A DNA stretch of 64,000 nucleotides. Origin: Gracilariopsis chorda. Taxonomy: Eukaryota > Rhodophyta > Florideophyceae > Gracilariales > Gracilariaceae. The stretch's first letter is position 1. Each line of letters opens with the position of its first letter. The notes under the pieces were generated by a model. The model did not search any database and was not told the DNA's origin. It saw only the letters and a program-made list of their open reading frames with translations. This document shows positions 1 through 49,301 of the stretch, piece after piece. A program made the position numbers and the translations under genes. The stretch lies in assembly GCA_003194525.1 (NCBI GenBank), contig NBIV01000149.1:1-64000 (forward strand). The letters are read 5' to 3'.

Positions 1-252
1 TTCTCCCCTTAAGCCCTGCCATGACGGGTCAGGAGCCGGCTACGTACGACCAGGAGTTTGTCGTTGACCACATCGTGGATCATGTTCTGGACTCCAAAGG
101 AGTGTGGTTTTACCAAGTCCGATGGTACGGATACTCCCCGGAAGAGGACACATGGGAGCCCATTCAGCACCTCCTCGTTCCAAGGTGATAACCTACCACC
201 GCCGGACGCGGTTCCCACTCCCATCCACTTTGGGCATGGCCCAGGTTGGGTA
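1..252 (+). CDS. C3 pol C-terminus with chromodomain
   Basis: Partial. The plus-strand translation shows a chromodomain (residues EFVVDHIVDH, then WYGYSPEEDTWEPIQHLP) and ends with AQVG before the stop. The chromodomains of C1 and C2 pol end with the same AQVG. In chromoviruses a chromodomain at the integrase C-terminus directs integration to particular chromatin; that is family knowledge. The upstream pol domains are outside the window. Confidence 0.88.
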
Positions 253-590
253 GGACGATACACTGCACTATGCAGAAGATTCCGAAGACGGAAGAGAAGT
301 CTCCGAAGAGAAGAGGACACAGGAAGAGATCTGGCTACAGAAGGTTACACGAAGTAATGGACTGGATAGGGAAACCAATGGTCATTGGACGTCACACCGC
401 CTAGCGGTCCGACCGAAGTAACGGTTTAATGAAGAATACCGCCTAGCGGTCCAGCATGAAGATGCTATGAAGAAGAAAAAGAACAGTCCGGACATACGGA
501 TATAGAAGAAGGAAGTCGTTTACCACAAGCTATGGAGCGTTAAGCGCTAACCTATATCAGGTGTGTGTGCCACGGTCCAGGAATCCTGAC

Positions 591-2450
591 TTAGGATGAG
601 CCGCTCGTTGCGGTTGGTAGTTCGCAGACGCGAAAAGCCAATAACTCGCTCACGCTGGTGAGGTTGGAAGGCGCAACCACTCCAATGGACTGGAGGTGAG
701 CCCTGAGGCCAACGGCCTGAGGGTCCACGGGGACCGGAGATGCGGTAGACGGAGAAGCAGCCGCACTGGCGGCCATATTCCAGCCATCTGGAGCAGCCAC
801 ATGCTGGCCGGATCCGTCGAGATCGTCGACCATCGCCGTTACCGGGGCTACGGCCTCCTCCACCTCATCGGGGTCGTCATCCACCATTGGATCATCCTCG
901 TAGGAACCGTGCCAGTCATCGGAAAACATGAACCCAACCGGTGGCCTCGCGGAACGGAGCGTGGTACATCGCGTAACGCTAGCGCGTGAGCCCGTGAAGT
1001 CACGGATACCTCCCAAGGGTCATAGAAGACGAAGTTGCCAGCGTTTGGATTTCTCCGGCCTGGAGAGCGATCATGCCTGGAAGGCTCACCGTCAGGGACG
1101 TTGGAGACTGGGACTGTATCCCAGTTAACCATATCGATGGTGTTCAGAAGGCACTGAAGCTCATCCACATTGGCTTCGGATCCCAGAGGGATATAGAGAT
1201 CCAATCGGCGGATAACCTGGCGTAGGTGAGGAGGAATGTACCACAGACGGTTCTTGTCGTACACCTCCCAGAGGAGAAATGCGGCAACGCGAGCAGCCCA
1301 TTCGGCGAGGAAGAGAGTCCAGTAACCGGAATCCGGATTGTTGATTAATCGTGAACCGATGTAGCTGAGGCACGGAGGCATCTCCGCAAAGCATCCCCTC
1401 GGGACTTCGAACCTGCTCCACCAATGGGGAAGAGGTGCATACCGGCCGCGCATCGCGGATGGACGGAGCCTCTCGACCTCGAGATTTTGGTATGGTACCA
1501 GGAACCCGAAGCGGGAGCGCGCCTTTCGCTCAAACCGGAGTCGGTCGAAGAAGGATCCGCGATGATTCGGACGACGAAGATATCGGAACTCTGCACGCAG
1601 AATTGGGCGCCTCCAGAGGAGCATCCCGGCTTCTATTGGAGTGGACCGGAACGGTGTAGATGGCTGGTAGGCAGCAAGGTTCTCGCAGTATGAGACTTCA
1701 CCGTAGGTACGGTACCGCGAGAGGTCAAAGCTGTATTCCGTTGGTACCAGCTCATCCGGATAACTCGCGCGGGCGAGACGGTCGTAGGCGACCTTGGCCA
1801 TCCCGGCACGGGCATCATTCAGCGTCTCGAAACCATATCTGGTGCGCTTCCGTGCGAGGAACTGTGGCTCTACCGCGATACGCGTCCTCCAGTCGAAGGA
1901 GTCGACCATATCCCGGCCCTAGTCCCCCTGGGAGCTCGCCCTCCTCCACATAGGAGTCGATGAGGTCCGAGTCGGAAACCCATGTGGGGTGGAACCAGGG
2001 CGCACGCGAAAAGAGGAGAGCGTCTTCCCGGGGATTGCGGGCCCAAAGTGTCGATGGTGACACCCAGCCGGCGGCGGTCGCAGTGATCGGTATCGCTTGA
2101 GCGGAATTCCAGGCGGCGATACTCGCGGCATCCGAGGCATCCAAGGTTGGAACATGAGACGATCCTCCAGGCAGAGGCAAGGAGAGGAACCCAGAGGATG
2201 GGTGACGAACCCACGACCCCGGCGTCGCGAAGGAAGGTTGTCCGCTCGCGGAAGTCCCCTGCGGGCGCCCGCAGGCGGGTTGTTCGAAAACGGAGTGTTG
2301 GTCATAGTAGAGAGGGGCGCAGAGTCTGTTGAAGAAGGTACTGAGGGTTGATCAGTTGTAACCGTGTTGGTACGGGGGACCGGTATCTCGGCGATTCCCT
2401 TGTCGGGACTATTTATACCCTCGCGCCTCATCTCCTCACGTTTATACTCA
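591..2450 (-). pseudogene. C3 antisense ORF region, homolog of the C1/C2 antisense ORF
   Basis: Minus-strand coding remains, tail to tail with pol. Recognisable blocks shared with the C1 and C2 antisense ORFs include RPILRAEFRYL, RFGFLVPYQNLEVER, RLINNPDSGYWT and FYDPWEV, matching RPIIRAEFRYL, RFGYFIPYQNVEIER, LLMQDPRSGLWS and YFEPWEF. The region is broken in several places and is treated as a fossil. Its value is that it shows the antisense ORF is an old, inherited part of this family and not an accident of one copy. No known domain is recognised; the protein is rich in Arg, Trp and Tyr. Confidence 0.75.
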
Positions 2451-2481
2451 CGTTCGTTTTCGGCCCTTAAGGAGGGGGATG

Positions 2482-3396
2482 TGTAGTGCAATACATTCCC
2501 GCGTACGGGCGATGGTGAAACTCATATCTGAGGTGTACTCGGTGCGAGCGATGAAGCGGGATGCATGAATTTTAGCCCCCATTTACCGGGCTAATTGGCG
2601 GTCGGGTTACCCAGGGTGGTTATGGGAACATTCATATTTTGTGGTACTTGCCTGGCAAGGGTGGTGGACACGTGGCTACAGCCCCGGCCAGGAGGCCCAA
2701 AACGGCTACTTATTTTAGTATAGTTTAGGGGTTAATTTTACTTAGGCTAGTGCACTACCTACTGTACTGCACTGAGCTAGTACTTGAGCGTCGGCCGCAC
2801 GGCGGCGAGCTCACCAAGAAAAGTAACAAGAGTTCGGCTCTGACTCTATTCGCCATGCGAAGTGTCTAACTCCTCGCGGAGGTACACCGCTTGCCCGATA
2901 GTTTCACCCGACTCGCACCACCGAGGAGACCGTGCTCGTCGTACCCAGTGGGTTGTGACCACTCGTGGTATTCGTTGTTGTCGTGTGACCGCCCGTACAG
3001 GCCCTATCTCCGCCCCAGTTTTGGGTATTGATATTACCGACGTGTGTCGTGAACCGTGAGACCGTCCCTTCCCCTCATATCCCCCTAACCGCCGCGCGGT
3101 GCGTGTTCGTGTGTGTGTATCGGCACCCCCCCCTCCGGGTCTGTTCCCGCTTTCCGCACGCCCCCGTCGGGTGGTCCCTTTCCCTCTTTTGTTCCACTGT
3201 TCGCAGGCTACTTCCGGACCAGCCGTGGTTCCGACCCGTTCTAACCCCTAAACCTCCGAGGTACATCCAGGCTCCCGACGGAGTTACACCCGTCATACGG
3301 GACACGGAGGGCTTCTACCCAGCTGGGCCTACCTCTCCAAGAGAGCAAGGCTTCGAGCTGCCTTGGGTGCCTTTCCCACACCGGGATTGCACCACA
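2482..3396 (+). repeat. C3 3' LTR (915 bp)
   Basis: Begins TGTAGTGCAATACATTCCC after a purine tract and ends GGGATTGCACCACA. The C1 LTR, read in element orientation, begins TGAAGTGCAACGCCC and ends GGGCATTGCACCACA, so the terminal inverted repeats are shared while the interior has diverged. A shared inner motif AGTACTT followed by a GC-rich palindromic stretch lies near 2790. The right boundary is where E0 pol resumes. Confidence 0.75.
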
Positions 3397-5177
3397 CTTT
3401 ACAGTGCTACCTCGGGGAATAAGAAGCTGCGTTGGACCAGAGAGATGCTAGAAGCTTTCCACGGTCTGAAGAAAAAGATGACTGAGCCTCCGGTACTTTC
3501 ATTTCCAAACTTCGAGCAGCCTTTCATTGTGGAAACGGACGCCTGTAGTGTTTCACTCGGCGCAGTTCTCTCTCAGAAAAAGGAAGATGGGAAGATACAT
3601 CCTCTGCAGTTTGCCAGTCGTACTATGACCGCTGCGGAAAAGAACTACTCGGCATGTGAAAGAGAAGCATTGGCAGTTATCTTTGCTCTCAAGAAGTTCA
3701 GATTGTATCTACTCTCGTCTGTTCCATTCAAGGTAATCACGGACCATATGGCTTACGATATGCATTTCAGAAGCGCGATATACATGGACGCTTAGCTCGC
3801 TGGCTAGAATTTCTGGCCAAGTATGACTTTGAAATAGTGTATCGCGCAGGCAAGGAGAATGGCGCAGCAGATTATCTGTCAAGGATAGTTCACGGAGACG
3901 AGGTCGAGCCGTTAGAAGATGAAGGCGACCTTGCTTGTATGGCTGTTGAGCCTGACGACATCTCCGGTCTTGAACCATACTACGCAAACATTGCGCGCTT
4001 CTTGTGTGGTCTGCCTACAGATGAGACTGATGCACGCCTCCGCCAAGCAATCCGACGAAATGCGAAGAAATTCCTGGTCTGGGAAGGAAAATTGTTCGGA
4101 AGGATGCCAAACGCACTGCGAGTTGTTCCTGTTATTGGTCGGCGACAGATCATTATCAAGTCATTTCATGATGAGATTGGACACTGGGATTTGAAGACTA
4201 CAAGGAAGTTCATCACTGAGAGATACTGGTGGCCCACTATGCATGAAGATATCGGCAACTACGTCAAGAGTTGTGACGAATGCCAGAGACTCGCACCACT
4301 ACCAAGGTATTACAGCAACCTTCGGACTCCCATTTCCTCTATCTTTGACGTCTTCTCGATTGATTTTGCAGGTCCTCTTCCGACTACCGAATCCGGAAAC
4401 CGTTTCATTCTGGTTTGTGTTGAGCATTTTACTGGTTGGCCACTTGCCGTAGCGACAAAATGGTCTACGTCACAGGAGGTCATAGACTTCGTGAGAAAAG
4501 AGATCATTGCCGTGTTTGGTTTCCCTCGTATCGTGGTGTCGGACAATGCTACATGCTTCACTTCTAAGTCACTCGTCTCATTCATGGAGGACCATGGTAT
4601 CAAATGGAAAACGGTCTTGGCGTACGCCCCCATGTCCAATGGCCGAGCTGAAAGGATGGTTGGTACTCTGAAAAGAGCAATAGGAAAGAAAGCTCTGGAT
4701 AATCGTTCAAGTTGGGACGAACACCTGCCTTCAGTTCTGTACGGATACCGGCGCAGACATCTTGCCAGTGGGATCTCTCCGTTCGAGTTGCTTTACGGCG
4801 TGAAACCACGTATGACCTCCGATGAAGGTGGTGTCGTGGCACGAGTTGGGGACTCCTCCGACCGGCTCCGCTCAGTGGAGCTGCTCGCATCAAGGAATCA
4901 TAGAGCTAAACGTTCTGCTCAGAGGCCTTTGAAGGAAGTCGATGCAGTCTCCCTTACGAAGTTTGAAGTCGGTGATCTGGTCCTTGTGGCTCGTGGAAAG
5001 GCCCTGAACACTACCGTGAAATGGCCTGCTTTTTCCTCTAAGTACTTTGGCCCATGTCGTGTGGTGAGGGCTCACCATCCAAAGTACACGTTGGTTTCTC
5101 CACACAACCGGTACAATCGCCATGGAATACACGCCCGTCGTTTGAAGAAGTATATTGCGCGCCCGATGGAAGGTTAA
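3397..5177 (+). CDS. E0 pol remnant: RNase H and integrase
   Basis: RNase H block with FIVETDACSVSLGAVLSQ, NYSACEREALAVIFALKKFR and an ITDH motif, then integrase: an HHCC zinc finger (H-G-H-W ... CDECQRL), a catalytic core with SIDFAGPLP and VVSDNATCF and a Glu in NGRAERMVGTLKRAI (the D,D,E triad), and a C-terminal region ending IHARRLKKYIARP. It carries out cDNA integration and RNA-strand removal in an active element; here it is a fossil fragment. RT is absent because C3 lies upstream. Confidence 0.85.
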
Positions 5178-17691: not shown

Positions 17692-18516
17692 TGTGGTGCA
17701 CTGCCCCAAAGGGGAAAAACACCGAAAGACGTTCGGGATCTTCCTATCACGAGGTGAACCCAGTTGGGTAGAGCCCTCCCAGAGGTGTCACGGCGAAGCC
17801 GGTTTGTAAGACCAGGGACACCTGTCGCGACTCGCGCAGGGAGGTGAAGGCGAAGAATCCGTATCCGCGTGAGCGGGGTGTGATCCTCAGTAGAGGTATG
17901 TTTCCACGTAAGTGGGGGTGTGTGAGCGGATGCGCACACGAGGGCCGCGGATAGCGGGAGGTGCTACCCTAAAAAGGGGGAAAGGGAAGGGCGAAGAGGA
18001 GGAAGAGAGGACGATGTGAGTCGCGAGAGCGACGAACGGATACGGTGATGCCGGTAACAATATCCCTATACAGGGCGAAACACCAATGCAATTGGAACAA
18101 TTATACTCCCAGTGATGGGTCCCTTTAGATGAGCAAGGGGGTTAGATGTCCCGTGGTTTACGGCGTTTCCCTCCAAGGAGGAGTAGAGCACGCGCGCAAG
18201 CGGCAACAACTAGAGCCAATTCCCCAGGTTCGGGTCCCTTGTTGGGGAAGGTTTACTGCTGCGACGGCAGTGCGCCGTCGCACTAAGTACTAGCTTCCCA
18301 GAAATGGGTGTGAAAATAATAAATAATATTAACTAAAATACTCCACATTTCGTGGCAACATCCACTACTGTGGCCAACCGCCAATTGACCCAAAACTGTG
18401 TCCCACGTGTCCATATCCACCATTGTGGGGCGTAGTTTATATACACAGTACACAACCGATAATATCGGGAAAACGATCAAGTACTAAGAATCCCTCCCTG
18501 AGGGCGTTGCGCTTCA
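17692..18516 (-). repeat. C1 LTR (3' LTR in element orientation)
   Basis: On the plus strand TGTGGTGCACTGCCCC ... GGCGTTGCGCTTCA; terminal inverted repeat TGNNGTGCAAYGCCC. The interior is an array of about 30 short hairpins, e.g. CCCC-AAA-GGGG (17704-17714), CCGAA-AGACG-TTCGG (17722-17736), ACCCA-GT-TGGGT (17758-17769), CCTC-CCA-GAGG (17775-17785), and a 9-bp-arm palindrome at 18260-18282. A TATATAC box near 18436 points towards the antisense ORF. Confidence 0.92.
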
Positions 18517-18572
18517 TATCCCCTCCCTAAGACGGGAAAACGACCGCGGACGCAGAGGGTTCCCAGACGAAA

Positions 18573-20359
18573 ATGGGTGATAAAAACGCGTGCTCTGTCT
18601 CCGGTTCTCCGGTAAATCCCTCTGCATCAGAGTCATCAAGCGCACAAACGACAACAACAGCCACCCTCCACAAGGGAGAAATGAACGACGACAACAACAT
18701 GAACAACCACAGCCAACCTCCGAGGCTTCTCGGGCGATACACCACCGGTTTCCGGTCAGTTTTCCTGCCTCAGGGTGGTTGACATCCGGTACAACCGGGG
18801 AATATGGCTGCTGCACCCGACCATCCCTTCGCACTCCCACCTTCGGTGGTGTCCTCCGGAACCACTCCGGTGTCCAACTGGCCAACGTACAACACCCTGC
18901 TGGAGCTCAACCCGATGAATCGGAATCACGCGTCGCGCCTGCGCCTTGCCCCGTGGTTCCGCCCAGTCGCTGTCCTCAATGAGGGATTGGTCACCGCTTA
19001 TGCGGATGGCTCAGACACCCTTCCGGGGGATCTGCCCAGAGCAGTCACCACATCGTGGGATTGGCGTCACCGGATTGCGATTCCGCGTCACCACCTCCGA
19101 AGGAATTCGGGCGAGACCGTCGCTGCGGCGCAGACCGCGTTGACGCGCATGGCGTACCAACGGCAGAGCCGGGCTCCATTCGATGTACCGGTCTCACTGG
19201 ACTTTGGCTTCGACGTTAGCTACTTCCGCACTCGCGGGGAGATTGGGTACGGCGAGAACCTGTTCCGCCTCGAGACCGTCGCTTGGAGGAATTTCCCCGC
19301 AGCGCGGCAAGAAGCTCTTTGTTGGGAGCGACCGATTATTCGGGCGGAGTTCAGGTACCTTCCCCGGCAATACCGGTCCAACTTTCTCCAAAACTTCATC
19401 CGCTACGAGCGGCGTTGGCGATCCCGATTCGGGTATTTCATCCCGTATCAGAACGTGGAGATAGAGCGGATTGCGCCGCCTCACCGACTAGGTCGGTATG
19501 TAGCACTCCCCGAGTGGTGGCGCTTCCACGAAGCCTGCCGGGGGTGCTACATAGAAGTCCCGCCGGTACTTACGTACCTCGGTTCGCTGCTCATGCAGGA
19601 TCCCCGGTCAGGGTTGTGGTCCGTAGTGGTTACGGAGTGGGCGGCCCGCACTGCGGCTTATATCCTCAACAAGGCGTACGACCAGTATCGTCTCTGGTTC
19701 CTTCAACCGCGTGTGCGGGCAGCGATCCGAAACCTGGATCTTCGCATCCCCCTTGGGGCCAGGCCAACAATGAAGAGGTCCTCCAATTACTTGGGTACAT
19801 CGACAGCGTTAGCTGGAGTGAGGTCCCGCTGGAGCAAAGCGGTCGTCTGGATGGCGGCAGCGGTAACACCGGTGGTCCGGGACTCGGTAGAAACACCGCC
19901 CTTGCGGGGGATTTTATCTACTTCGAACCCTGGGAGTTCCGGAAAATTTCCTCCGAGGAGGCGCGCGAGCTTCGCGATACGCCCCGGCATGTGCCGGAAG
20001 ACCACCCTGTTGGGTACGTCGATTCTGACGACTACTACCGCGCATACGGCGGGGATGATCCAAGGGTCGATAACGAACCGGAAGAACCCGGGGAGATGGA
20101 CGTAGAGGAAACCGGCGCTAGCGCGGAAGCTTTCCCAGAGGGGGTATCTCCGGCCGAGCTGGCCGCTGACCCTTCGGCGGCAAGTGCCGGACCTTCTATC
20201 CCCAGCGGGGTGACGGCGAATGAAAACGAGATCATCGCACGTTTTCTCCGGGGTGCCGGTCTTAGTGCTGCCGAGGTATGGGTGGATGTCACCACCATGG
20301 CGGACGCGTTGGCCTACCGCCTTGCTGTTGGTTACGCCCCGGACGATGGGGGTGAGTGA
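18573..20359 (+). CDS. C1 antisense ORF, unknown protein
   Basis: It runs on the plus strand, opposite and convergent to pol, starting 57 bp inside the 3' LTR and ending about 190 bp from the pol stop. The predicted product is about 600 residues: a Ser/Pro/Asn-rich start (MGDKNACSVSGSPVN), a central Arg/Trp/Tyr-rich part (RPIIRAEFRYLPRQYRSNFL, RFGYFIPYQNVEIERIAPP, LPEWWRFHEACRGCY), then an acidic tail with DDYYRAYGGDDP and NEPEEPGEMDVEE and a C-terminal Ala-rich helix. No known domain is recognised; it is not an obvious envelope protein because I see no signal peptide or membrane anchor. The near-identical C2 copy and the diverged C3 copy argue for a conserved element gene. One break. Confidence 0.78.
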
Positions 20360-20550: not shown

Positions 20551-23500
20551 TTACCCAACTTGGGCATTAACCAGCGTGGCTGGGGCTGCAGTTCCCGTTT
20601 GACGGTGGTATCGCAGGACCTGCGACCGTGGGAGGTGTTCAATTGGCTCCCACGTATCCCCAATGGGGTCATACCCGTACCAGCGGACGCGGTATTGTAG
20701 AATACCATCCTGGTCCCAGGTGTGTCCGACAAGTCGGTCTACTACGAACTCTCGTTCGTAGACCTGCCGGCCGTGCCGGGTGGTGGTTGTATTTCCTTGC
20801 GGGGGCTGCCCGCTGTGCGGTATAATGTCCCTTAGCAGGGTGTTCGGCGATAAATCCGGCGTTACCGTGCGCTGTGATAGCGGCCGCTGCTCATGCGAGA
20901 AGATATCCCTCAATAGGGTGTGTGGTGCCACGGTTTTCACCGGCAAGTCATTCCCCATTGGGGCAGGTTCATTTCCGCTTTCGCGGTATTGCGGGCGAAC
21001 CGCCAGTCGGCGGGGGACTTGGGTTCCGCCTTCGCGGTTGAGCTCACGAACCGCGAGTTTGCGGGAAGATGATCGCTCCTGCGGGATCGGCATTTCCACA
21101 ATCCCCTGGGGGGTCCCGTGCGATACGGTGATTGGGTGGCAAACCGCCTCCCTGCCAGGCGCACGAGCGCTCTGCACCATACGTTCCGGCGATGCCGTGG
21201 TGTCCCCGGCTACTGACGGGTTGCCTGGGGCTAACTCCGGTACACCGGTATTTTGGTCAAAATTCCCCTTTGGGGGGTGCCGTGCAGGTGCCAATGACAC
21301 CCTTTTCAGGGGAATTGCCGCTAAGCGCGGTGCACAATCTCCATGAGGAGGAGCAGCGTACGGTACGACCGGTTTCGAGCGTGCGATGGCGCGCGTTATT
21401 CCCGAGTTCCTCGGTTCTTCGCCGCAGCGTTGCGGGGGTTCGCGCAATTTATTCCCCGGAGCGGGGGCTTCGATTCCGTCAACGACGGGAGGCGTTTCCG
21501 GTGCTTGCGAGCCAGGGCTTAAAGCTTCGACTGCGGCTTGGCTGCCTTTTTCCCCAAGAGGGGTGTGGGTATTTCCCTGTGAGGCCGGCGTATCTGGGCG
21601 CCCCTTCTCCGCAAGGCACGGGTCTGATCGACCTGATTGAACCGCTTCCGCGGGGACTTCCGCCAACGGCGGCTTCGAGACATCGCCCTGCTGAGGGGAT
21701 TGAGGGCAATCGTCACCATACTCCCTTATCGGGGATCCTTCCCTGACAGGGTTGTGCAATAGTTGCGCTTCAACTTCCCGTGTAGCACGGTATATTTCCC
21801 GCGTTTGTGGCGATGCCTCCGGGGATGGATCGGGCGATTGCATTTCCGCTGCTGCGGTATTGGAGGGAGGCTTCTCGTTTTCCCGTGACAAACGGTGTAT
21901 TTGCCACTTTTGCGGGGCCTGCGCGTCTGGTTCCTGTTGCAAAGCACTGCCCGGCAACGGGGGATTAGTGTCGCGTGACATACTCCGTGCTCCACGGTCA
22001 GTGTTCCGTATGTTACGGTGTGTTTCCCGTTGCGACGGCGATATCGTTCCTCGAAAACGAGTGTTCTCCTCCCCCTCCTTAGACGGAGCGGCGGGATAAG
22101 GGATAACATTCCCCGCCTGGCGGGTATAGATGCGCGCCAGTGGGGCAGACGTGACAGGGGCGGGCGCTGAGGGGCCCGAATTACCCGGCTGAGCCGGTGA
22201 GTCCGACAGAGTCGGTAGGTCTGAGAGTCCCCGGCTGGGGTGTGGTAGTACCGTAGGTCTAGTACTCCCGGATTGTTCCGGTGTAGCGGAGTTCGTAGAA
22301 ACGGGGTTGCCTGGATCCAGGACTACCTCTGACGAGGGAGGAGGGGCAAGGACAACACGATCACGGGAAATCCGTTCGTGCGTGTCCCCCATCTCTACCA
22401 CGACAGTGTCGGTGTTAACAGAGATGACCTTGAAGGGTCCATCCGCCACAGGCGAGAGTTTGTGACGCTTCTCCCGTTCCGGGTTGTAGTATTCCTTCCT
22501 GATGAAGACGTAGTTATTTGCCCGAATCGGGGACGGTTTTCCTCGCACGCGAGCGTCAAAATCCCGCTTGTAAGCGGCTTGGGCCCGTGCCATAGACTTC
22601 CGCGCAGCGGGGACCAGCTTGGAAAGCCATTGCTTCCATTTCTGCCGGTAGATACCCACAGATGGGAAATTGTCCAAGGTAGCTTGGGGTTCCAGCGCCA
22701 CAGGCGGGGGTGTTCTACATAGAACCAACTCGAATGGCGAAACTCCGGTAGTCCGGTGTACCTGCGTATTGTACGCGTAGGTTACCGCATCAGCGTACAT
22801 GTCCCAGTTCTTTGGGTGGTCTGCGACGTAGGAACGTAACGCCGCGAGTAACGTCCGGTTAAACCGTTCAACTTGCCCATTACACTGGGGGTGGTAGGTA
22901 GTCGTGAACAAGTTCTTGACATCCAGGATGCGACAGACATCCTGGAAGAACTTGCTCACGAACTGTTTCCCGTTATCGGAGAGCACCTGTACAGGGGGAC
23001 CGTAGACAAAAATTCAGTGCGTCACCAGAGCCTGGGCCACCGTGAGAGCGGTTATCCTCCGAAGAGGGACAGTCCGTACCAGCTTAGAAAAGCGGTCGGT
23101 AATGACAAGTAGAAACTTGTTTCTACGTTTCGTGGTGAGTAGTGGTCCGAGAATATCGATCGCGATAAACTCGAGCGGCGCCCTTGTGGGGAATAGTTTC
23201 ATCTTCTTCGCATTTTTGCGGAGCTTGACGCGATTCTTCGCGCATTCGCTACAGAACCGCACAGTTGCGTAGCAATCCACCGCCACGGCGGGCCAATAGA
23301 AATCCCTTCGCAGGGTTAGGTAGAGTTTCCTCCCACCTGGGTGACCTCCAATGGGGGCGTAGTGTGAGAGATGTAACACCTGCGATCGCAGGAAATGTGG
23401 TACCACAATCTGTGGGCGGGCTTCGACCTTCCTTACGAGGTAGCCTTTGTCGTTTACCCCGAAAGGGAGATCTTCACCACCGTTGATACGGGCACGAATT

Positions 23501-26259
23501 CTCGTACAGAATGGGTCGCCGAATTGTTCTCGGATCATTTCTTCCGGTGATACCGGTACAAAGTTTCCCGGTAAGGGGTTCTCAGATTTATCTCGCGATG
23601 CGAGTAGTTCGTCAAAATCAGCATCCCCGTCCCAGTTTTCTGGCCGAGCCTTGACGGCGCATTCCGGATCATCCGGGTCTATGGCCATGAAACATGGGTC
23701 TTCATCATCCTCCGTTGGGAGTGCTTCCCCACTTGTGGGTAACCGCGACAAAGCGTCGGCCTGGGTGTTCTGCGCGCCCTTTTTATAAATGACTTGTAAG
23801 TCATATTCCGCGAGGCGGAGTCTCCAGCGCATGAGGCGTCCCGACGGGTCGGAGATATTCATCAACCACCTCAATGAGGAATGATCCGTGTACACGGTGA
23901 AGTGAATTCCCATAAGGTAGGGGCGCAGAGTGGTCATCGCCCATACGACGGCGAGGCACTCTTTTTCCGATACGGAGTAGTTCCGCTCATGAACATTGAG
24001 CGAGCGCGACCAATAACCAATTGGATGTCGTTCCCCCTCGGGGGTGGTTTGAAAAAGAGCACACCCGACTTGGTAGTCGCTCGAGTCCGTATCTACGGAG
24101 TATGGCAACCCAAGTTTTGGGAGATGTAGGATTGGTGCTGATGTGACAGCCTCCTTTAAGGAGTTGAAGGCTTCCGATTGCTCGGGCGTAAATGTTCCCA
24201 GTTTTGGGGGGTTCCCCTTTCGCAACAACGCGTTCAGGGGCGCTGCAGTATCCGAAAAGTTCGGGATAAACCGTCGATAGACGTTGACCAGCCGCAGAAA
24301 GGAGCGCAGTTCCGTTAGAGTACGGGGCTCTTTCGCCTCAACGAGGGATTTGACTCGAGCTTTCTCGATCGCTAACCGTCCAGGACGGATAATGTCACCC
24401 AGATACTTCACAGTATCTGTGAAAAACTCGCATTTCCTCAACTTGAGGGTAATTCCCGCATCGCGGAGTACGGTCAGCACGTCTCGGACGTGAGTGAGAT
24501 GGTCGTCCAACGAGTTGGGGAAGATGATAATATCATCAAGGTAGACCAGACAGCTCCGCCACTTAAAGCGGTTGAGTAGAATATTTACTGCACGCTGAAA
24601 GGTGGCGGGGGCGTTGGTTAACCCAAATGGCATCCGCTTGAAGCGGTACGTTCCTGCGTGGCAGGTCAATGCGGTTTTGTCGCGATCCTCCTGTCTGACA
24701 GGTACTTGCCAATATCCCCAATTGGCATCAAGGGCCGTAAACACGGTGGCGTCTCCAAGGGAGTCAATGCACTCGTCCATACGAGGGATAGGGTACGTGT
24801 CCCTAACGGTCACGGCATTGAGCCGGCGGTAGTCGACACAGAACCTCCAGGTTCCGTCGGCATTTAAAGCCAGTACAACTGGGGATGCCCAGGGTGATTG
24901 AGCGGGCTCAATCACACCTGCGCGGAGCATCTTGTCCACTTGGGACTGCTCCTCTTCCCGAGCTTTCGGACCTGCCCTGTAAGGGGGTTGTGCAACCGGT
25001 CGCGCACCGGGGATTAAATCGATCCGGTGTTCTGTTGCATTAATCTCGCCAAGCGAGCCATCCCACATTGTGGTGAATTCCCGTAACATTGTACGGAGTT
25101 TGTCGCGGTGCGACTCTGGCACGTGGCTGAAGTCCAGCGCTTCAAGTACCTTTTCCGGGTCAATCCGGTCATTGCTCGATGGAACATTGTCCTGTGGAAC
25201 AGGTGTGGTTCGCAATTCCGAGTTACTCGGTGTGTTCGACGCTGAAGTAGCGGTTTCCTCCCTCTCCTTAGACTTGACGTCTTTGGACGGCGGGGCGAAC
25301 TCCTCAGAAGAGGTGGTAACTTCGAGTACATCGGCTGCTGTCATCTTCGTTGACAGCATTACCATAGGATGGGGGGTTACAATCCCAATTACTTGGTGTT
25401 TTACCAGATACTGGGGGTGTTTGCCAAGGTTGGCAGCCAATATCCGGAAAGGAACATCCCGGGAAATGGAGACAATTCCATTAGCCAGCGCCAGCTGGGA
25501 TTTCTCGTACAACGAGGCGAGGGGTTGTATAACCCAAAAACCGTGTTGACGGGAATTTACCTGCACCCAAACTTGGGACTCAGCCGGTATAGAAACCGAG
25601 GCAGCGACGTGGAGCTTGGAGGACTCGTGGGACGCGGGCGGTGGTTCCTGCGCAGCAGGGAGCGGAACTTGTTTCCAAGAGGACCGCTTTAGCGGGCGGC
25701 GAACAATCGGAATTGACGATACGTCGTCAAGTTCTACACGCCTGAGGCGGGGCCTGATTGCGTCGACAAAGCTGTCGCAGTAATCACATCCCAGTCTGAC
25801 TGGTGCTGCCAATGAACGGCAAACGATGAAGTCCAACTTCACCACGGAGGTACCAAGTCTCACGACGAAGTCCACTGTGCCCACCGTTTGTAACAGATTG
25901 TTGTTCGCATCCGAAATGTCGGGGACCGCGTCAGAGCGGATACGCGACCGCACAAGCGGGGGTAACAATGATTCCACAACAAAGTTGGGGCCTGCACCTG
26001 TATCCAGGACGGTGAGAAACCTCACCATAAACTGGGGATCAAGGCCAAGGTCGGCATAGACCTTATAATTGCGTTTGGCCAAGACCAAGACTCTACCGGG
26101 AATCCGGGGATTTTTACTCCGTATCCACGGGCGACGCAACACACCGAGGTGCGCAGAGTCCGCGTCAGCGGTGTCTTTCCTCGAGAGGACTTTCACCGGG
26201 GAGCGAGGCGAGGACGCCTCGGGCGCCAACAGCCTCGTTGTTGAGGACGCCTCTCCCAA
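20551..26259 (-). CDS. C1 pol region: protease, RT, RNase H, integrase, long linker, chromodomain
   Basis: Minus strand. Protease with VLDTGAG; RT with DYRRLNAVTVRDTYPIPRMD, MPFGLTNAPATFQRA and the YLDD catalytic box; RNase H with DTDSSDYQVGCALF and YTDHSSLRWL; integrase zinc finger (HLSHY ... GGHPGG ... CSECAKN) and core with FIAIDILGPL, LSDNGKQF and CNGQVERFNRTL (D,D,E); a Pro/Ser/Arg-rich linker of some 450 residues; and a C-terminal chromodomain (EFVVDRLVGH ... WYGYDPIGDTWEPIEHLP) ending AQVG. Pol follows gag in another frame, as in many Ty3/gypsy elements where frameshifting is used. The region carries one break. The linker is where the hairpins are densest. Confidence 0.92.
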
Positions 26260-26276
26260 AGGGGAGACTCCCTCAG

Positions 26277-28451
26277 TTAGTTTTCCGCCTTCGGCGGTGG
26301 GTTGGTTTCCTCGACAACGAGTGCTTCATCCCGTTGACGGGGGTTTCTATCCGCATAAGCGGGGTTTGCAACGGATGGTTGCGTGATCTCCCGAATCGGG
26401 GTGTATGAAGCTTGCCGCGCACGCGGGGCCTGTGGTAGGGCATGGGAAAAGTCCGTTTTAGCACGGAGGTAGGAAGCCGTCTGGACGGAACGTGTCTCCT
26501 CTGGAGTGAGGGCCTCATAATTTGCCACCACCTTGGCCATATCCTTCAGTGAACAAATACACTGAGGTGAGGTATGGCCATGGGCATAGCACAGGTGGCA
26601 AATGAGAGCCAATACCGCGACACGCGGATTATTATTCCGAGTATTGGAGAAGTGAACCGCAGGGCGGGTGTCAGTCCATCCAGGCCGTTGATAATGGGAT
26701 TGAACGTTTGAAAACGGGAGTCGTTGGGGTTGAACCCGACTGTTACTACCGTACAAAACAGGGTCTTCCGTTCCCGTATCACGGGTCATCTCCGTCGTTG
26801 ACGGTAAATCACTGGTGGGTATCGACACACCATCCTCCTCCACTAAATGCACGGTATCAAATCCCTGTCCAGGATTCCCATCCGCGGTGAGCGGGAGAAA
26901 GGAAGCTTCGCTTTCCAGCAACAACGCCTTGGCAGATTTAGACCGATTGTTCGGAGTTCTTGCACGAAGTGCATCCCCTTCCGCTCGGGCGTGTTGAACC
27001 AGCTCGAGATAGGTGATCCTCCGCTTTTCCTCGCGACAACGGGTAACTAAACTCCGGATTGCCGGGTCAAGACCATCGATGAACATGGTACTGCGCTCCT
27101 CAGTGGGGTATACGTTACCACATCTGTGGAAAGCCTTGTTAAGGCGCACTGAGTAACCGGTCTCGGTCTCTCTAGCACGCTGGCGTGTATCTCGCAAAGC
27201 GAGGATAGCCTGCTGAATAGCGGTGTTTGTGGCGTAGGAGCGCAGTAAGTACTGCACAGCCTCCGGCCAGAAAGTAACTCCTCCCTCGGAGGCACCAGAA
27301 GATCCTCTGACAGAGTTGTATTGGTCCTCCGCCACTGCCCGTAAGAAATACGGTAAAGCCAAATAGGCTTGTCCCTCATTCATACCGAGGATATCGGCCT
27401 CCGCTACAAAGCGGGATAGGAAATCCAGTACTAGGACTGGGTCCTCTTCAGTAAAATACTGGTTGCGGAGCGAGAGCTGCATTCGCTTAATGCATTCTCG
27501 CACCTTTCCCGTACCACGGGGCGTACGTCCAAGTGACGAGTCTTCGAGCCGGTAGTAACGGTATGATAAAAGCTTCCGGTAATCCGGGTTTGTCGGTTTC
27601 CATTCCCGTAGACCGGGGTGTCTTCTCCCCTTCTGGCGGGTTCGAACCACACCTTCAGTGGCCGATGACCGCTTCGAGCGGGAGGAGTAGCCTCGCTTCT
27701 CGTCCTCCGAGTCGGAGTCCGAGGAGCTCGAGCTAACCGAATGGTTTCGAGATGAGTCCGACGATGTCGAAGAATCGAAGTCCGAATATTTTCGGTGGTG
27801 TTTCCGTCGATGACGGCGTTTCTTCTTCCCAGCAAGCTGGTCGTTGTGCGATGCCTCGTTTACCGGATCATCCGGGGATGGTTTGTCCATGAGGACGAAC
27901 TGCTCCAGCGTCTCCAGGCGGGCACCAATCCGATCAAATCGGGCTTCAACTCCTTCGATGAAGGTGGCGGGTTGTCCCAAACTCTCCAACACGGAGTTGA
28001 CGTCAGACCGTAAAATACGGAGTTCCTCGGCGACCTCCTTTACGGGGGTTGCCAAGACCACCTCTTGGAGAGATTTTAGTTCCCCTACAAAGGTGTCATG
28101 GGCGGTCCACAGAGCGTGGACCTGGGATTCCAAGGAAGTCCCCTGGAGGGTGTTATCGCCCGTTCCACGGGGGCTTGAAGCCGCGACAGCGGGAGCAGGC
28201 CGGGGAGCTTGGGGCACTGCGGCAACAGCCAGAGTCGATGCTGCATTCCCCTGCGGGGGTGATAACGAGGGCAAAAGGAGGTTCCGGGGTTCCCGGTCGG
28301 GGGTATCATTCGGCGATGAGGCGGCGCCAGCACGGCTGGAACTTGTCCGTAAAGGGATACGGGGTACGAACCGAACTTCGGATGTGTCCGCGTTGTCGCG
28401 GGAGCGACTACGTGTAACCACTGGCTCCGCGTCGGAGGGATTTCTCGACAT
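26277..28451 (-). CDS. C1 gag
   Basis: 724-residue open frame on the minus strand. N-terminal Pro/Ala/Ser-rich region, a helical segment with likely coiled coil (ELRILRSDVNSVLESLGQ), a basic stretch KKKRRHRRKHHRK followed by a Ser/Asp/Glu-rich tract, a capsid-like domain (YRKLLSYRYYRLEDSSLG to LELVQHARAEGDALRART) and one CCHC zinc knuckle CHLCYAHGHTSPQC. The structural protein of the particle; the knuckle binds element RNA. Looks open throughout. Confidence 0.88.
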   Translation of the reverse strand: MSRNPSDAEPVVTRSRSRDNADTSEVRFVPRIPLRTSSSRAGAASSPNDTPDREPRNLLLPSLSPPQGNAASTLAVAAVPQAPRPAPAVAASSPRGTGDNTLQGTSLESQVHALWTAHDTFVGELKSLQEVVLATPVKEVAEELRILRSDVNSVLESLGQPATFIEGVEARFDRIGARLETLEQFVLMDKPSPDDPVNEASHNDQLAGKKKRRHRRKHHRKYSDFDSSTSSDSSRNHSVSSSSSDSDSEDEKRGYSSRSKRSSATEGVVRTRQKGRRHPGLREWKPTNPDYRKLLSYRYYRLEDSSLGRTPRGTGKVRECIKRMQLSLRNQYFTEEDPVLVLDFLSRFVAEADILGMNEGQAYLALPYFLRAVAEDQYNSVRGSSGASEGGVTFWPEAVQYLLRSYATNTAIQQAILALRDTRQRARETETGYSVRLNKAFHRCGNVYPTEERSTMFIDGLDPAIRSLVTRCREEKRRITYLELVQHARAEGDALRARTPNNRSKSAKALLLESEASFLPLTADGNPGQGFDTVHLVEEDGVSIPTSDLPSTTEMTRDTGTEDPVLYGSNSRVQPQRLPFSNVQSHYQRPGWTDTRPAVHFSNTRNNNPRVAVLALICHLCYAHGHTSPQCICSLKDMAKVVANYEALTPEETRSVQTASYLRAKTDFSHALPQAPRARQASYTPIREITQPSVANPAYADRNPRQRDEALVVEETNPPPKAEN

Positions 28452-28555
28452 GAGAAAATACCGTTACGACGGGAAACGATCACGGAACTTCCGGCAAATA
28501 AAAACAAACCTCTTAAGAGGGAAAAAAAAAACGATTCTAAGTCAAGAGACCACTT

Positions 28556-29380
28556 TTTGGTGCAATGTCCCAAAGGGGAAAAACACCGAAAGACGTTCGG
28601 GATCTTCCTCTCACGAGGTGAACCCAGTTGGGTAGAGCCCTCCCAGAGGTGTCACGGCAAAGCCGGTTTGTAAGACCAGGGATACCTGTCGCGACTCGCG
28701 CAGGGAGGTGAAGGCGAAGAATTGGTATCCGCGTGAGCGGGGTGTGATCCTCAGTAGAGGTATGTTTCCACGTAAGTGGGAGTGTGTGAGCGGATGCGCA
28801 CACGAGAGCCGCGGATAGCGGGAGGTGCTACCCTAAAAAGGGGGAAAGGGAAGGGCGAAGAGGAGGAAGAGAGGACGATGTGAGTCGCGAGAGCGACGGG
28901 GGCGAACGGCGGTGCCTGTAACAATATCCCTATACAGGGTGAAACACCAATGCAATTGGAATAATATGACTCCCAGTGATCGGTCCCTTTAGATGTGCAA
29001 GGGGGTTAGATGTCCCGTGGTTTACGGCGTTTCCCTCCAAGGCGGAGTAGAGCACGCGCGCAAGCGGCAACAACTAGAGCCAATTCCCCAGGTTCGGGTC
29101 CCTTGTTGGGGAAGGTTTACTGGTGCCACGGCAGTGCGCCGTCGCACTAAGTACTAGCTTCCCAGAAATGGGTGTGAAAATAATAAATAATATTAACTAA
29201 AATACTCCACATTTCGTGGCAACATCCACTACTGTGGCCAACCGCCAATTGACCCAAAACCGTGTCCCACGTGTCCATATCCACCATTGTGGGGCGTAGT
29301 TCATACACGCACTACACAACCGATAATATCTGGAAAACGATCAAGTACCTGGAATCTCTCCCTGAGGGCGTTGCACTTCA
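28556..29380 (-). repeat. C1 LTR (5' LTR in element orientation)
   Basis: 825 bp, same length as its partner and ending GGCGTTGCACTTCA. It differs from the partner in patches, notably near 28898-28920 and 28960-28982, rather than evenly. This is followed by the CCAGA target duplication and the resumption of H pol. Confidence 0.9.
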
Positions 29381-38645: not shown

Positions 38646-39453
38646 TGTGGTGCAATGCCCCAAAGGGGAAAAACACCGAAAGACGTCCGGGATCTTCCTC
38701 TCACGAGGTGAACCCAGTTGGGTAGGGCCCTCCCAGAGGTGTCACGGCGAAGCCGGTTTGTAAGACCAGGGACACCTGTTGCGACTCGCGCAGAGAGGTG
38801 AAGGCGAAGAATCGGTATCCGCGTGAGCGGGGTGTGATCCTCAGTAGAGGTATGTTTCCACGTAAGTGGGGGTGTGTGAGCGGATGCGCACACGAGGGCC
38901 GCGGATAGCGGGAGGTGCTACCCTAAAAAGGGGAAAAAGGAAGGACGAAGTGGGTCGCGAGAGCGACGAGCAGATACGGCAATGCCGGTGGACAGGACTC
39001 CCTCTACAGGGCGAAACACCAATATGATTGGAACAATTAGTACTCCCAATGATCGGTCTCCTTTAGATGTGCAAGGGGGGTGAACTTCCGTACACTACGG
39101 TGCTTCCCTCCAAGGAGGAGTTGAGAACACGCGGAGGCGGTAAAGCTCAGAGCCAATTCCCCAGGTTGGGGTCCCTTGTTGGGGAAGGTTTACTGATGCG
39201 ACGGCAGTGCGCCGTCGCACTAAGTACTAGCTTCCCAGAAATGGGTGTGAAAATAATAAATAAAATTAACTAAAATACTCCACATTCCGTGGCAACATCC
39301 ACTACTGTGGCCAACCGCCAATTGATCCAAAACCGTGTCCCACGTGTCCATATCCACCATAGTGGGGCGTAGTTCATATACACACTACACAACCGATAAT
39401 ATCGGGAAAACGATCAAGTACCAAGAATCCCTCCCTGAGGGCGTTGCACTTCA
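38646..39453 (-). repeat. C2 LTR (3' LTR in element orientation)
   Basis: TGTGGTGCAATGCCCC ... GCGTTGCACTTCA, 808 bp, with the same hairpin array as C1 but some different stems, e.g. CCGTA-CAC-TACGG where C1 has CCGT-GGTTT-ACGG. Followed on the plus strand by the complement of the polypurine tract (TATCCCCCCCCT). Confidence 0.92.
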
Positions 39454-39509: not shown

Positions 39510-41357
39510 ATGGGTGATAAAAGCGCCTTCGCTGTCTCCGGTTCTCCGGTAAATCCCTCTGCACCAGAGTCAATACCTCCTGCTACTGCAGCTGTCATTT
39601 CCTCGCCTCGCCTTCGCGCTTCCTCGTCACCGAGCGTACTCCGACAAACAACATCAACCACCCTCGAAGAGGGAGAAATGAACAACGACAACAACATCAA
39701 CAACCACAGCCAACCTCCGAGGTCTCTCGGGCGATATACCACCGGTTTCCGGTCAGTTCCCCTGCCTCAGGGCGATCAACCTCCGGTACAACCGGGAAAT
39801 ACGGCTGTTGAAGCCGACCCTCCCTTCGCATTACCACCTTCGGTGGGATCCTCCGGAACCGCTCCGGTGTCCAACTGGCCAACCTACAACACCCTGGTGG
39901 GGCTCAACCCGATGAATCGGAATCACGCGTCACGCCTGCCCCTTGCCCCGTGGTTTCACCCGGTCGCTGTCCTCAATGAGGGATTGGTCACCGCTTATGC
40001 GGATGGCTCAGACACCCTTCCGGGGGATCTGCCCAGGGCAGTCACCACATCGTAGGATTGGCGTCACCGGATTGCGATTCCGCGTCACCACCTCCGAAGA
40101 AATTCGGGCGAGACCGTCGCTGCGGCGCAGGCCGCGTTGACGCGCATGGCGTACCAACGGCAGAGCCGGGCTCCATTCGATGTACATGTCCCACCGGAGT
40201 TTGGCTTCGACGTTAGCCACTTCTGCACTCGCGGGGAGATTGGGTATGGCGAGAACCTGTTCTGCTTCGAGACCCTCGCTTGGAGGAATTTCCCCGCAGC
40301 GCGGCAAGAAGCTCTCTGTTGGGAGCGACCGATTATTCGGGCGGAGTTCCGGTATCTTTCCCGGCAATACCGGTCAAACTTCCTCCAGAACTTCATCCGC
40401 TATGAGCGGCGTTGGCGATACCGATTCGGGTATTTCATCCCGTATCAGAACGTGGAGATAGAGCGGATTGCGCCGCCTCACCGACTAGGTCGGTATGTAG
40501 CACTCCCCGAGTGGTGGCGCTTCCATGAAGCCTGCCGGGGGTGCTACATAGAACTCCCGCCGGTACTTACGTACATCGGTTCGCTGCTCATGCAGGATCC
40601 CCGGTCGGGGTTGTGGTCCATAGTGGTTACGGAGTGGGCGGCCCGCAGTGCGGCTTATATCCTCAACGAGGCGTACGACCAGTATCGTCTCTGGTTCCTT
40701 CAACCGCGTGCGCGGGCAGCGATCCGAAACCTGGATCTTCGCATCCTCCTTGGGGGCCAGGCCAACAATGAAGAGGTCCTCCAATTACTTGGGTACATCG
40801 ACAGCGTTAGCTGGAGTGAGTTCCCGCTGGAGCAAAGCGGTCGTCTGGATGGCGGTAGCGGTAACACCGGTGGTCCGGGACTCGGTAGAAACACCGCCCT
40901 TGCGGGGGATTTTATCTACTTCGAACCCTGGGAGTTGCGGGAAATTTCCTCCGAGGAGGCGCGCGAGCTTCGCGATACGCCCCGGCATGTGCCGGAAGAC
41001 CACCCGGTGGGGTACGTCGATTCCGACGACTACTACCGCGCATACGGCGGGGATGACCCAATGGTCGATAACGAACCGGAAGAACCCGGGGAGATGGACG
41101 TAGAGGAAACCGGCGCTAGCGCGGAAGCTTTCCCAGAGGGGGCATCTCCGGCCGAGCCGGCTGCTGACCCTTCAACGGCAAGTGCCGGACCTTCTATCCC
41201 CAGCGGGGTGACGGCGAATGAAAACGAAATCATCGCACGTTTCCTCCGGGGTGCCGGTATTAGCGCTGCCGAGGTATCGGGGGATGTCACCACCATGGCG
41301 GACGCGTTGGCCTACCGCCTTGCTGGGGGTTACGCCCCGGACGATGGGGGTGAGTGA
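39510..41357 (+). CDS. C2 antisense ORF, unknown protein
   Basis: Same position and orientation as in C1: ATG 57 bp inside the 3' LTR, end about 190 bp from the pol stop, opposite strand. Product about 615 residues, starting MGDKSAFAVSGSPVNPSAPE, with the same central RPIIRAEFRYL and RFGYFIPYQNVEIER blocks and the same acidic tail (DDYYRAYGGDDP, EEPGEMDVEE). The N-terminal Ser-rich part differs in length from C1, while the centre is almost unchanged. One break. Function unknown; see C1. Confidence 0.78.
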
Positions 41358-47110: not shown

Positions 47111-47127
47111 AGGGGAGACTCCCTCAG

Positions 47128-49301
47128 TTAGTTTTCCGCCTTCGGCGGTGGGTTGGTTTCCTCGACAACGAGTGCTTCATCCCGTTGACGGGGGTTTCTA
47201 TCCGCATAAGCGGGGGTTGCAACGGATGGTTGCGTGATATCCCGAATCGGGGTGTATGAAGCTTGCCGCGCACGCGGGGTCTGTGGTAGGGCGTGGGAAA
47301 AGTCCGTTTTAGCACGGAGGTAGGAAGCCGTCGGGACGGAACGTTTCTCCTCTGGAGTGAGGGCCTCATAATTTGCCACCACCTTGGCCATATCCTTCAG
47401 TGAACAAATACACTGAGGAGAGGTATGGCCATGGGCATAGCACAGGTGGCAAATGAGAGCCAGTACCGCGACACGCGGATTATTATTCCGAGTATCGGAG
47501 AAGCGAACCGCAGGGCGGGTGTCAGTCCATCCAGGCCGTTGATAACGGGATTGACCGTTTGAAAACGGGAGTCGTTGGGGTTGAACCCGACTGTTATCAC
47601 CGTATAGAACGGGATCTTCTGTTCCCGTATCATGGGTCATCTCCGTCGTTGACGGTAACTCACTGGTGGGTATCGACACACCATCCCCCTGCGCTAAATG
47701 CACGGTATCAAATCCCTGTCCAGGGTTCCCATCCGCGGTGAGCGGGAGAGAGGAAGCTTCGCTTTCCAGCAACAACGCCTTGGCGGATTTAGACCGATTG
47801 TTCGGAGTTCTTGCACGAAGTGCATCCCCTTCCGCTCGAGCGTGTTGGACCAGCTCGAGGTAGGTGATCCTTCGCTTGTCCTCCCGATAACGGGTAACTA
47901 AACTCCGGATTGCCGGGTCAAGACCATCAATGAACATGGTACTGCGCTCCCCAGCGGGGTATACGTTACCACATCTGTGGAAAGCCTTGTTAAGGCGCAC
48001 CGAGTAATCGGTCTCGGTCTCTCCAGCACGCTGGCGTGTATCTCGCAAAGCGAAGATAGCCTGCTGAATAGCGGTGTTGGTGGCGTAGGAGCGCAGAAGA
48101 TACTGCACAGCCTCCGGCCAGCAAGTAACTCCTCCCTCGGAGGCGCGAGAAGATCCTCGGACAGAGGTGTATTGGTCCTCGGCCACTCCCCGTAAGAAAT
48201 ACGGTAAAGCCAAATAGGCTTGTCCCTCATTCATACCGAGGATATCGGCCTCCGCTACAAAGCGGGATAGGAAATCCAGTACTAGGGCTGGGTCCTCTCC
48301 AGTAAAATACTGGTTGCGGAGCGAGAGCTGCATTCGCTTAATGCATTCTCGCACCTTTCCCGTACCACGGGGCGTACGTCCAAGTGACGAATCTTCAAGC
48401 CGGTAGTACCGGTATGATAAAAGCTTCCGGTAATCCGGGTTTGTCGGTTTCAATTCCCGGAGACCGGGGTGTCTTCTCCCCTTCTGGCGGGTTCGGACCA
48501 CACCTTCAGTGGCCGATGACCGCTTCGAGCGGGAGGAGTAGCCTCGCCTCTCGTCCTCCGAGTCGGAGTCCGAGGAGCTCGAGCTAACCGAATGGTTTCG
48601 GGATGAGTCCGACGATGTCGAAGAATCGGAGTCCGAATATTTTCGGTGGTGTTTCCGTCGATGACGGCGTTTCTTCTTCCCAGCAAGCTGGTCGTTGTGC
48701 GATGCCTCGTTTACCGGATCACCCGGGGATGGTTTGTCCATGAGGACGAACTGCTCCAGTGTCTCCAGGCGGGCACCAATCCGATCAAATCGGGCTTCAA
48801 CTCCTTCGATGAAGGCGGCGGGTTGTCCCAAACTCTCCAACACGGAGTTGACGTCAGACCGTAAAATACGGAGTTCCTTGGCGACCTCCTTTACGGGGGT
48901 TGCCGAGACCACCTCTTGGAGGGATTTTAGTTCCCCTACAAGGGTGTCATGGGCGGTTCACAGAGCGCGGACCTGGGATTCCAGGGAAGTCCCCCAGGGG
49001 TGTTATCGCCCGTTCCACGGGGGCTTGAAGCCGCGACAGCGGGAGCAGGCCGGGGTGCCTGGGGCACTGCGGCAACAGCCGGGGTCGGTGCTGCATTCCC
49101 CTGCGGGGGTGATAACGAGGGCAAAAGGAGGTTCCGGGGTTCCCGGTCGGGGGTATCATTCCGCGATGAAGCGGCGCCAGCACGGCTGGAACTTGTCCGT
49201 ATAGGGATACGGGGTACGAACCGAACTTCGGATGTGTCCGCGTTGTCGCGGGAGCGACTACGCGTAACCACTGGCTCCGCGTCGGAGGGATTTCTCGACA
49301 T
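47128..49301 (-). CDS. C2 gag region
   Basis: Closely similar to C1 gag along its length: Pro/Ala/Ser-rich start (MSRNPSDAEPVVTRSRSRDN), coiled-coil segment, KKKRRHRRKHHRK basic stretch, Ser/Asp tract, capsid-like domain and the CHLCYAHGHTSPQC zinc knuckle. Carries one break. Confidence 0.88.

Follow-up and report, generated by a model that had tools for sequence, protein, structure and literature searches.

What maintains the dense succession of short perfect inverted repeats in the long terminal repeat (LTR) at 17692-18516 of the 64,000-nt window (the whole stretch of DNA analysed here), and does it belong to the LTR at all? A preliminary description of this locus treated the repeats as a design of the LTR, with about thirty micro-hairpins, and guessed at packaging, resistance to silencing or a role in replication.

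The hairpins are carried by a Ty3/gypsy chromovirus

The LTR is part of element C1, which occupies 17692-29380 on the minus strand, and a second element, C2, occupies 38646-50215; both belong to family C (Table 1). C1 has the 5-bp target duplication CCAGA at both sides and the polypurine tract GGGAGGGGATA before its 3' LTR, while the left end of its other LTR has decayed to TT. The C2 pol matches the Pfam families RVT_1 (1.2e-33), RT_RNaseH (7.9e-35), Integrase_H2C2 (3.2e-11), rve (5.6e-11) and Chromo (6.5e-10). With RT, RNase H, integrase and chromodomain within one pol, the carrier is an ordinary Ty3/gypsy chromovirus. The named pol relatives, among the 120 listed, come from the red algae Agarophyton chilense and Chondrus crispus and from one bacterial bin, which points to a florideophyte red alga as the probable host; the source genome of the window, eukaryotic in its genes and elements, measures 91.3 Mb.

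Table 1 Position and hairpin content of the features in the window
Feature	Position	Strand	Remarks
Family B element, 3' part	1..3400 (end approximate)	+	stem base mostly A, C or T, then C; convergent gene on minus strand, 848-2521
C1 3' LTR	17692..18516	-	TG..CA, 825 bp, 26 micro-hairpins
C1 convergent gene copy, between pol and 3' LTR	18783..20359	+	two different frames open; hairpins all along
C1 pol: RT, RNase H, H2C2 and rve integrase, chromodomain	20551..26325	-	one interrupting stop; hairpins all along
C1 gag frame	26277..28463	-	hairpins all along
C1 5' LTR	28556..29380	-	25 micro-hairpins
C2 3' LTR	38646..39453	-	27 hairpins
C2 convergent (antisense) gene	40056..41357	+	kept in family B (43% amino acid identity); 38 hairpins vs 20 in synonymous shuffles
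C2 pol	41549..47176	-	1875 open codons; 174 hairpins vs 77 in synonymous shuffles
C2 gag	47128..48957	-	one CX2CX4HX4C knuckle (by eye); 65 hairpins vs 26 in synonymous shuffles
C2 5' LTR	49407..50215	-	26 hairpins
Solo family C LTR	59093..59920	-	28 hairpins
Solo family C LTR, opposite orientation	61929..62756	+	CC..GG-based hairpins; stretch 61600-63200: CC 20 vs 1.8 expected

Between the integrase core and the chromodomain of the C2 pol lie ~660 residues that are Pro/Ser-rich by eye; to our knowledge, the corresponding spacers of chromoviruses are far shorter. C1 itself is inserted into the RT of another gypsy element (15257-17691), which has no hairpin excess. Elsewhere, an ORF at 52141-53892 matches PAP2 and the vanadium chloroperoxidase N-terminal domain, as expected in a red alga, and the region 54001-57000 shows very strong opposed GC skews (-0.41, then +0.39) around a glycosyltransferase-like ORF. 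An Rfam scan at gathering thresholds gave 0 matches, and a tRNA search gave no tRNA. For the primer binding site, no tRNA was assigned to the sequence that follows the 5' LTR.

The array extends over the whole element, coding regions included

We called hairpins as non-overlapping perfect stems of at least 4 bp with loops of 2-5 nt and compared their number with that in 100 dinucleotide shuffles. The LTR at 17692-18516 contains 26 hairpins against 9.3 (sd 2.7) in the shuffles, and 0 of 100 shuffles reached 26. This agrees with the initial claim of a density far above chance, while the count of about thirty was slightly high; given 26 observed against 9.3 shuffled, about one third of the hairpins in a single LTR are expected by chance. 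Stems of at least 5 bp are also in excess (9 vs 2.5), and stems of at least 6 bp are at the chance level (1 vs 0.7), with no excess in single LTRs. The proposed recurrence of the array in C2 and in the solo LTRs was confirmed by the hairpin counts of the four other LTRs and by the CC excess around the oppositely oriented solo LTR (Table 1).

In 800-bp bins along the window (dinucleotide shuffles), the excess amounts to z 5.0-7.9 from 17601 to 28800 and z 3.3 in the bin at 28801 for C1, and to z 3.9-7.6 over 38401-50400 for C2, and it drops off at the ends of both elements. Bins without elements of the clade range from z -1.4 to 3.0, with the top values of 2.4, 2.7 and 3.0 at 10401, 12001 and 16001. 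Most other bins lie within ~2 sd of the shuffles; higher values occur at 1-3200 (the tail of the family B element), at the solo LTRs and, in the range 2.1-3.0, in a few further bins. The outcome that had been named beforehand as speaking against the array, an equal density in shuffled sequence or in other DNA of the window, was thus not observed. Hairpin density alone picked out every known copy of the clade within the window.

The array is not a design of the LTR. C2 carries 369 hairpins (31.9 per kb) across its ~11.6 kb including gag and pol, and pieces of three related families, 7.6 kb of B, 5.6 kb of D and 6.0 kb of E, contain 25.9-28.0 hairpins per kb. We therefore rejected an LTR-only feature, because gag, pol, the 3' region and the other families of the clade, including the family B element at the start of the window, are similarly dense.

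Within the coding regions, synonymous codons were shuffled within each gene as the null. Under this null, the excess reaches z 13.4 in C2 pol, 10.8 in C2 gag and 4.5 in the C2 convergent gene, and z 4.5, 5.9 and 6.8 in the RT-IN region of families B, D and E, respectively. Among the controls, the gypsy integrase (z 0.2) and the host PAP2 ORF (-0.3) are low, and a copia element at 59930-61930, a host M1 peptidase (z 2.5 each) and the gypsy gag-RT (1.8) are mildly raised. Amino acid identity between families is slightly lower within hairpins (0.72-0.73 vs 0.76-0.77), suggesting that some hairpins may come at the expense of the protein sequence. In the RT-IN codon alignment, which shows 59 C2 hairpins, few stretches have an inter-family gap except at the truncated ends; the hairpins there therefore arose via substitution, and on this ground we rejected the insertion of hairpin mini-elements.

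The array marks one chromovirus clade

From 150 scored RVT_1 matches in the source genome, 14 RT loci were chosen. The array is present in all ten sampled loci that are 64-83% identical to C2 at the amino acid level (z 4.4-9.5), and it is absent from all four sampled Ty3/gypsy loci with 29-34% identity (z -1.2 to 0.7). Two other gypsy pieces of the window (26-43% identity in the matched parts) have no array either. No relatives were found in viral and genome contig collections, so the array is known from this one genome. Within the sampled loci of this genome, the hairpin array is a feature of one chromovirus clade.

The unit is a strictly Watson-Crick hairpin with a family-specific base

The unit spans 11-14 nt, centred on 12-13, and mostly consists of a 4-5-bp stem with a loop of 3-5 nt. 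In C1, units with a CC..GG base and two more pairs occur 90 times against 5.3 expected at span 12 and 69 times against 5.9 at span 13, and are around or below chance at spans 17 to 25. Over the whole of C1, 6-bp inverted repeats with loops of 1-5 nt are enriched as well (35 vs about 10). Among C1 stems whose three inner pairs are Watson-Crick, 361 have C-G outermost against 48 expected and 57 have G-C against 44; a G-C stem base is about as stable as a C-G one. The favoured outermost pairs are C-G, T-A and A-T in B, mainly C-G in D, and C-G, T-A and weakly A-T in E. The families thus show dialects at the stem base, with CC..GG in C and mostly in D, and C-G, T-A or A-T followed by C in B, and G-C is hardly or not favoured at the outer position. 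The CC..GG base and the T preceding it had been correctly recognised from the start; the T before the stem on the plus strand corresponds to an A after the stem on the sense strand.

At the third pair of C1, all four Watson-Crick combinations are enriched (observed/expected: GC 96/5.7, CG 51/6.7, AT 31/2.8, TA 27/2.7), and wobble is at chance (GT 4/3.9, TG 5/4.2). Over the four families, hairpins with an internal wobble number 332 against 356 expected on the sense strand and 400 against 393 on the antisense strand, compared with 1176 against 391 for perfect Watson-Crick stems. The stems are strictly Watson-Crick, with internal G.U at chance on both strands. When all antisense wobble hairpins are counted, an excess is seen (17 vs 7.2, 62 vs 37.1, 135 vs 94.5 and 200 vs 156.4 in bins of decreasing stability), which lies in the outermost and loop-closing pairs (for example, T-G at pair 4: 139 vs 95.8). 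We dropped it as a feature, not fully explained, because this excess mirrors the flank and loop composition and the internal pairs are at chance. A C.A combination (sense) at the fourth pair is above chance in both elements (20 vs 4.3 in C1, 19 vs 4.6 in C2).

The flanks of the stems are polar. On the sense strand, A at +1 outnumbers T at -1 by 200:77 over the four families and by 98:48 when C is left out (C 102:29, B 32:14, D 31:17, E 35:17; singly, only C is below p=0.01), and in C2 outside gag and pol the ratio is 30:11 (p=0.004). Since A at +1 exceeds what strand symmetry would give, one strand counts more, and the sense strand tends towards an unpaired A after the stem. No common loop motif was seen.

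Neighbouring hairpins in family C are preferentially separated by linkers of 5-10 nt (119 vs 80 under random placement), and linkers of 0-4 nt are rare (39 vs 79); D and E show a weaker preference of this kind, and B shows none. A long-range lattice of ~20 bp was rejected, since the spacing peak is a neighbour preference in C: the periodogram power of 7.1 in C (mean 4.9) was reached by 12% of gap shuffles, and the power in B, D and E by 51-78%. Long hairpin-free gaps are no rarer than under random placement.

Selection keeps the hairpins while their positions turn over

To follow changes within family C, we compared 31 copies of 5 kb of pol, namely the best 30 of 66 scored matches (C2 included) and C1. 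Private synonymous changes fall in stems about as often as elsewhere (ratio 0.91, p=0.58). Changes carried by exactly two copies show a slight, non-significant deficit in stems (ratios 0.80 and 0.73), and changes in at least 3 of the 31 copies clearly avoid them, both synonymous (0.27-fold, 6 vs 44, p=0.0008) and non-synonymous (0.32-fold, 4 vs 28, p=0.03). The same was seen in 13 LTR copies (seven of eight genome matches, one being C1 itself, and six window copies, including two LTR pairs of single elements), where changes in at least two copies occupy 7 of 262 stem positions and 67 of 563 positions elsewhere (p=5e-6), with a ratio of 0.92 for private changes. These data show that purifying selection keeps the hairpins in family C. 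The copies of family B are very alike, with 34 singletons and 4 changes shared by at least three copies; their stems are not depleted, which neither supports nor contradicts selection.

Between families, the individual hairpins are partly conserved at most. The families share about 65-72% nucleotide identity with one another, and most hairpin centres differ, with 6-16 of 44-57 centres shared against 2.3-3.7 in the null. Where both partners of a pair changed between families, 141 of 314 pairs are still Watson-Crick (0.45), compared with 0.14-0.25 under codon-phase shifts of the partner and 0.21-0.31 when it is moved by 1-2 columns; these counts are ordered comparisons among four sequences and hence not independent. 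At alignment column 914, for instance, two serine codons covary as TCC-TCG / TCG-TCC / TCT-TCA / TCC-TCG. The array is thus mostly not position-specific, and its density is what is kept.

Gag and the convergent gene

PF03732 was found in 12 of 46 Gag relatives, and no Pfam match at E<=0.001 was found in the two Gag frames scanned; the knuckle of the C2 Gag (Table 1) was spotted by eye in the translation. The gene between pol and the 3' LTR, convergent to pol, is represented by a frame of 609 codons in 70 of the 97 copies scored, in some of them by reading through stops. Its protein has no Pfam match, three database relatives (55, 35 and 32%) and a predicted structure with a mean pLDDT of 38.5. 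A family C copy at C222:33404-41581, 9.0 kb from LTR to LTR, lacks only the region of this gene (39604-41370 of C2) and retains the array, and LTRs that lie 9.0-9.1 kb apart on contigs C1 and C288 suggest more such copies. The gene may therefore be dispensable or supplied in trans. As the ~9-kb copy keeps its hairpins, the convergent gene is unlikely to be their reader.

What could read the array

Our best explanation, which we put forward tentatively, is that the hairpins may be dispersed recognition sites for an element-encoded nucleic-acid-binding protein that acts in packaging or reverse transcription. In this clade the chromovirus genome as a whole, and not the LTR alone, carries several hundred short hairpins, which in family C purifying selection maintains through replication. 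Their putative reader would be a co-evolving protein encoded by the element, with the nucleocapsid part of Gag and its one CCHC knuckle as the most likely candidate; it would act on genomic RNA, on single-stranded cDNA or on both, during packaging, compaction or reverse transcription. If sites were counted additively, their density would be kept even though most positions are not, and the 5-10-nt linkers in C would be accounted for. The whole-element density with its sharp ends, the clade specificity, the synonymous null, selection, covariation, the stem base, the flank polarity and the linkers all support this explanation. It is at odds with the intolerance of internal G.U, which is unusual for an RNA-binding signal unless an exact geometry is read or both strands matter, with the lack of a shared loop motif and with a Gag knuckle seen by eye in a protein without a Pfam match. 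The predicted RNA folding is also modest, with in-context mean pair probabilities of 0.32-0.44 on the sense strand, and the native flanks outperform shuffled ones in C only (0.44 vs 0.40; reversed in B, D and E; one shuffle each and no significance test).

The strict Watson-Crick rule and the family-specific base constrain the early guesses of packaging, silencing resistance and replication. It is conceivable, and we regard it as speculative, that the hairpins form an element-wide barcode, written mostly through synonymous codons, whose family-specific base is read by the family's own protein such that each family recognises its own genome.

Defence evasion, in which the transcript and small RNAs of either strand would be self-structured and so blunt RNA silencing, appears doubtful to us. 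A need for structure on both strands would explain the strict Watson-Crick pairing, the convergent gene could yield double-stranded RNA, and a span of 11-14 nt fits within a 21-24-nt small RNA. It also fits the predicted RNA stabilities: the enrichment of Watson-Crick hairpins is ~4-fold from -2 to -5 kcal/mol, 2.0-fold in the bin of highest stability and absent above +1. However, other Ty3/gypsy loci of the same genome do without the array, the ~9-kb copy lacking the convergent gene has it all the same, and neither the C-G base nor the family dialects nor the flank polarity is predicted. Hairpin-free gaps are no rarer than random, indicating that coverage is not optimised.

A function in single-stranded DNA seems similarly unlikely to us. 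Here the minus-strand cDNA or displaced strands would fold, and nucleocapsid, RT or a host factor would use the hairpins in reverse transcription or integration. Wobble is poorly tolerated in DNA, and the folding probability on the sense strand is higher with DNA parameters (0.46-0.61) than with RNA parameters. In single-shuffle comparisons with DNA parameters, again with no significance test, native flanks give higher values than shuffled ones in three families, 0.61 against 0.505 for C, 0.49 against 0.44 for B and 0.52 against 0.48 for D, but E shows no insulation (0.463 native vs 0.488 shuffled). Moreover, at an equal predicted DNA stability of -1 to -2 kcal/mol, G.T hairpins (59 vs 45 and 58 vs 53) are much less enriched than Watson-Crick hairpins (516 vs 144 and 495 vs 147).

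Plain selection for stable RNA secondary structure, of the genome-scale ordered kind, is improbable. One LTR folds better than its shuffles (z -4.1 with RNA and -2.8 with DNA parameters, 20 shuffles each), which such selection would produce, as it would the 6-bp inverted repeats of C1. Stability by itself does not account for the array, however, in that sense-strand wobble hairpins of equal predicted RNA stability are hardly enriched and G-C is not accepted instead of C-G at the base. From -2 to -4 kcal/mol, wobble hairpins are enriched 1.0-1.3-fold and Watson-Crick ones ~4-fold; from -4 to -5, 11 wobble hairpins stand against 6.7 expected.

A mutational origin, in which an error-prone RT of the clade makes templated palindromes by intra-strand template switching, is very improbable. 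Strict Watson-Crick pairing, narrow span, clade specificity and turnover of positions would then come free, but the polymorphism does not follow: the 511 private changes gained 51 hairpins against 64 (sd 8.5) at random, a lack of bias that argues against template-switch mutation. The 82 changes in at least three copies caused fewer losses than random ones (15 vs 28.3; gains 11 vs 10.0), and shared changes avoid stems in pol. A double change at a stem pair was found once in the 31 pol copies, where it was non-Watson-Crick, and never in the 13 LTRs or in 12 family B tails; no copying between arms was therefore seen. Chance or composition, which supplies the chance third of the hairpins in a single LTR, is refuted as the source of the array by the dinucleotide and synonymous nulls, the control regions, polymorphism and covariation.

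Comparison with known systems

The carrier resembles Ty3/gypsy chromoviruses (Tcn1-like and plant groups) in Gag, in the order of RT, RNase H, integrase and chromodomain, in its LTRs and in the 5-bp target duplication of C1, and it differs from them in the hairpin array, the long spacer before the chromodomain and the convergent extra gene before the 3' LTR. The judgement that the array is unusual was upheld: a search of the open-access literature returned no description of a comparable array in any retroelement. Small DNA hairpins read by proteins are known from the single-stranded hairpin promoters of phage N4 and from the REP/IS200 hairpins, but those systems have a few sites each, whereas here the array is element-wide. 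GORS is structure along a whole genome, and the array is like it in extent; unlike GORS, it consists of short hairpins of narrow span with a sequence-specific base and no wobble, so pairing does not follow RNA stability with wobble included. Nor do new mutations make inverted repeats or copy arms, as in templated palindromes.

The array amounts to a second, structural code that extends across genes and LTRs for more than 10 kb, is selected and differs between sister families. If the hairpins counter silencing, this would be a new way of doing so.

The array also resembles dispersed packaging signals. In the packaging-signal-mediated assembly of single-stranded RNA viruses such as MS2, many small stem-loops throughout the genome share a recognition feature, which in MS2 lies in the loop and a bulge (PMC6281560). 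The array is like these signals in its many small stem-loops throughout the genome, coding parts included, and in having a shared putative recognition feature, which lies under selection in family C. As compared with MS2 as described there, the shared feature here is a C-G base with its flank, the stems are strictly Watson-Crick and follow one another about every 30 nt, and they are carried by an LTR retrotransposon. The hairpin positions are at most partly conserved between relatives, short of what is expected of packaging signals. If the reader is a protein, the array would count as a distant variant of dispersed packaging signals, offering several hundred sites per genome at which to measure how a capsid protein recognises or compacts its genome.
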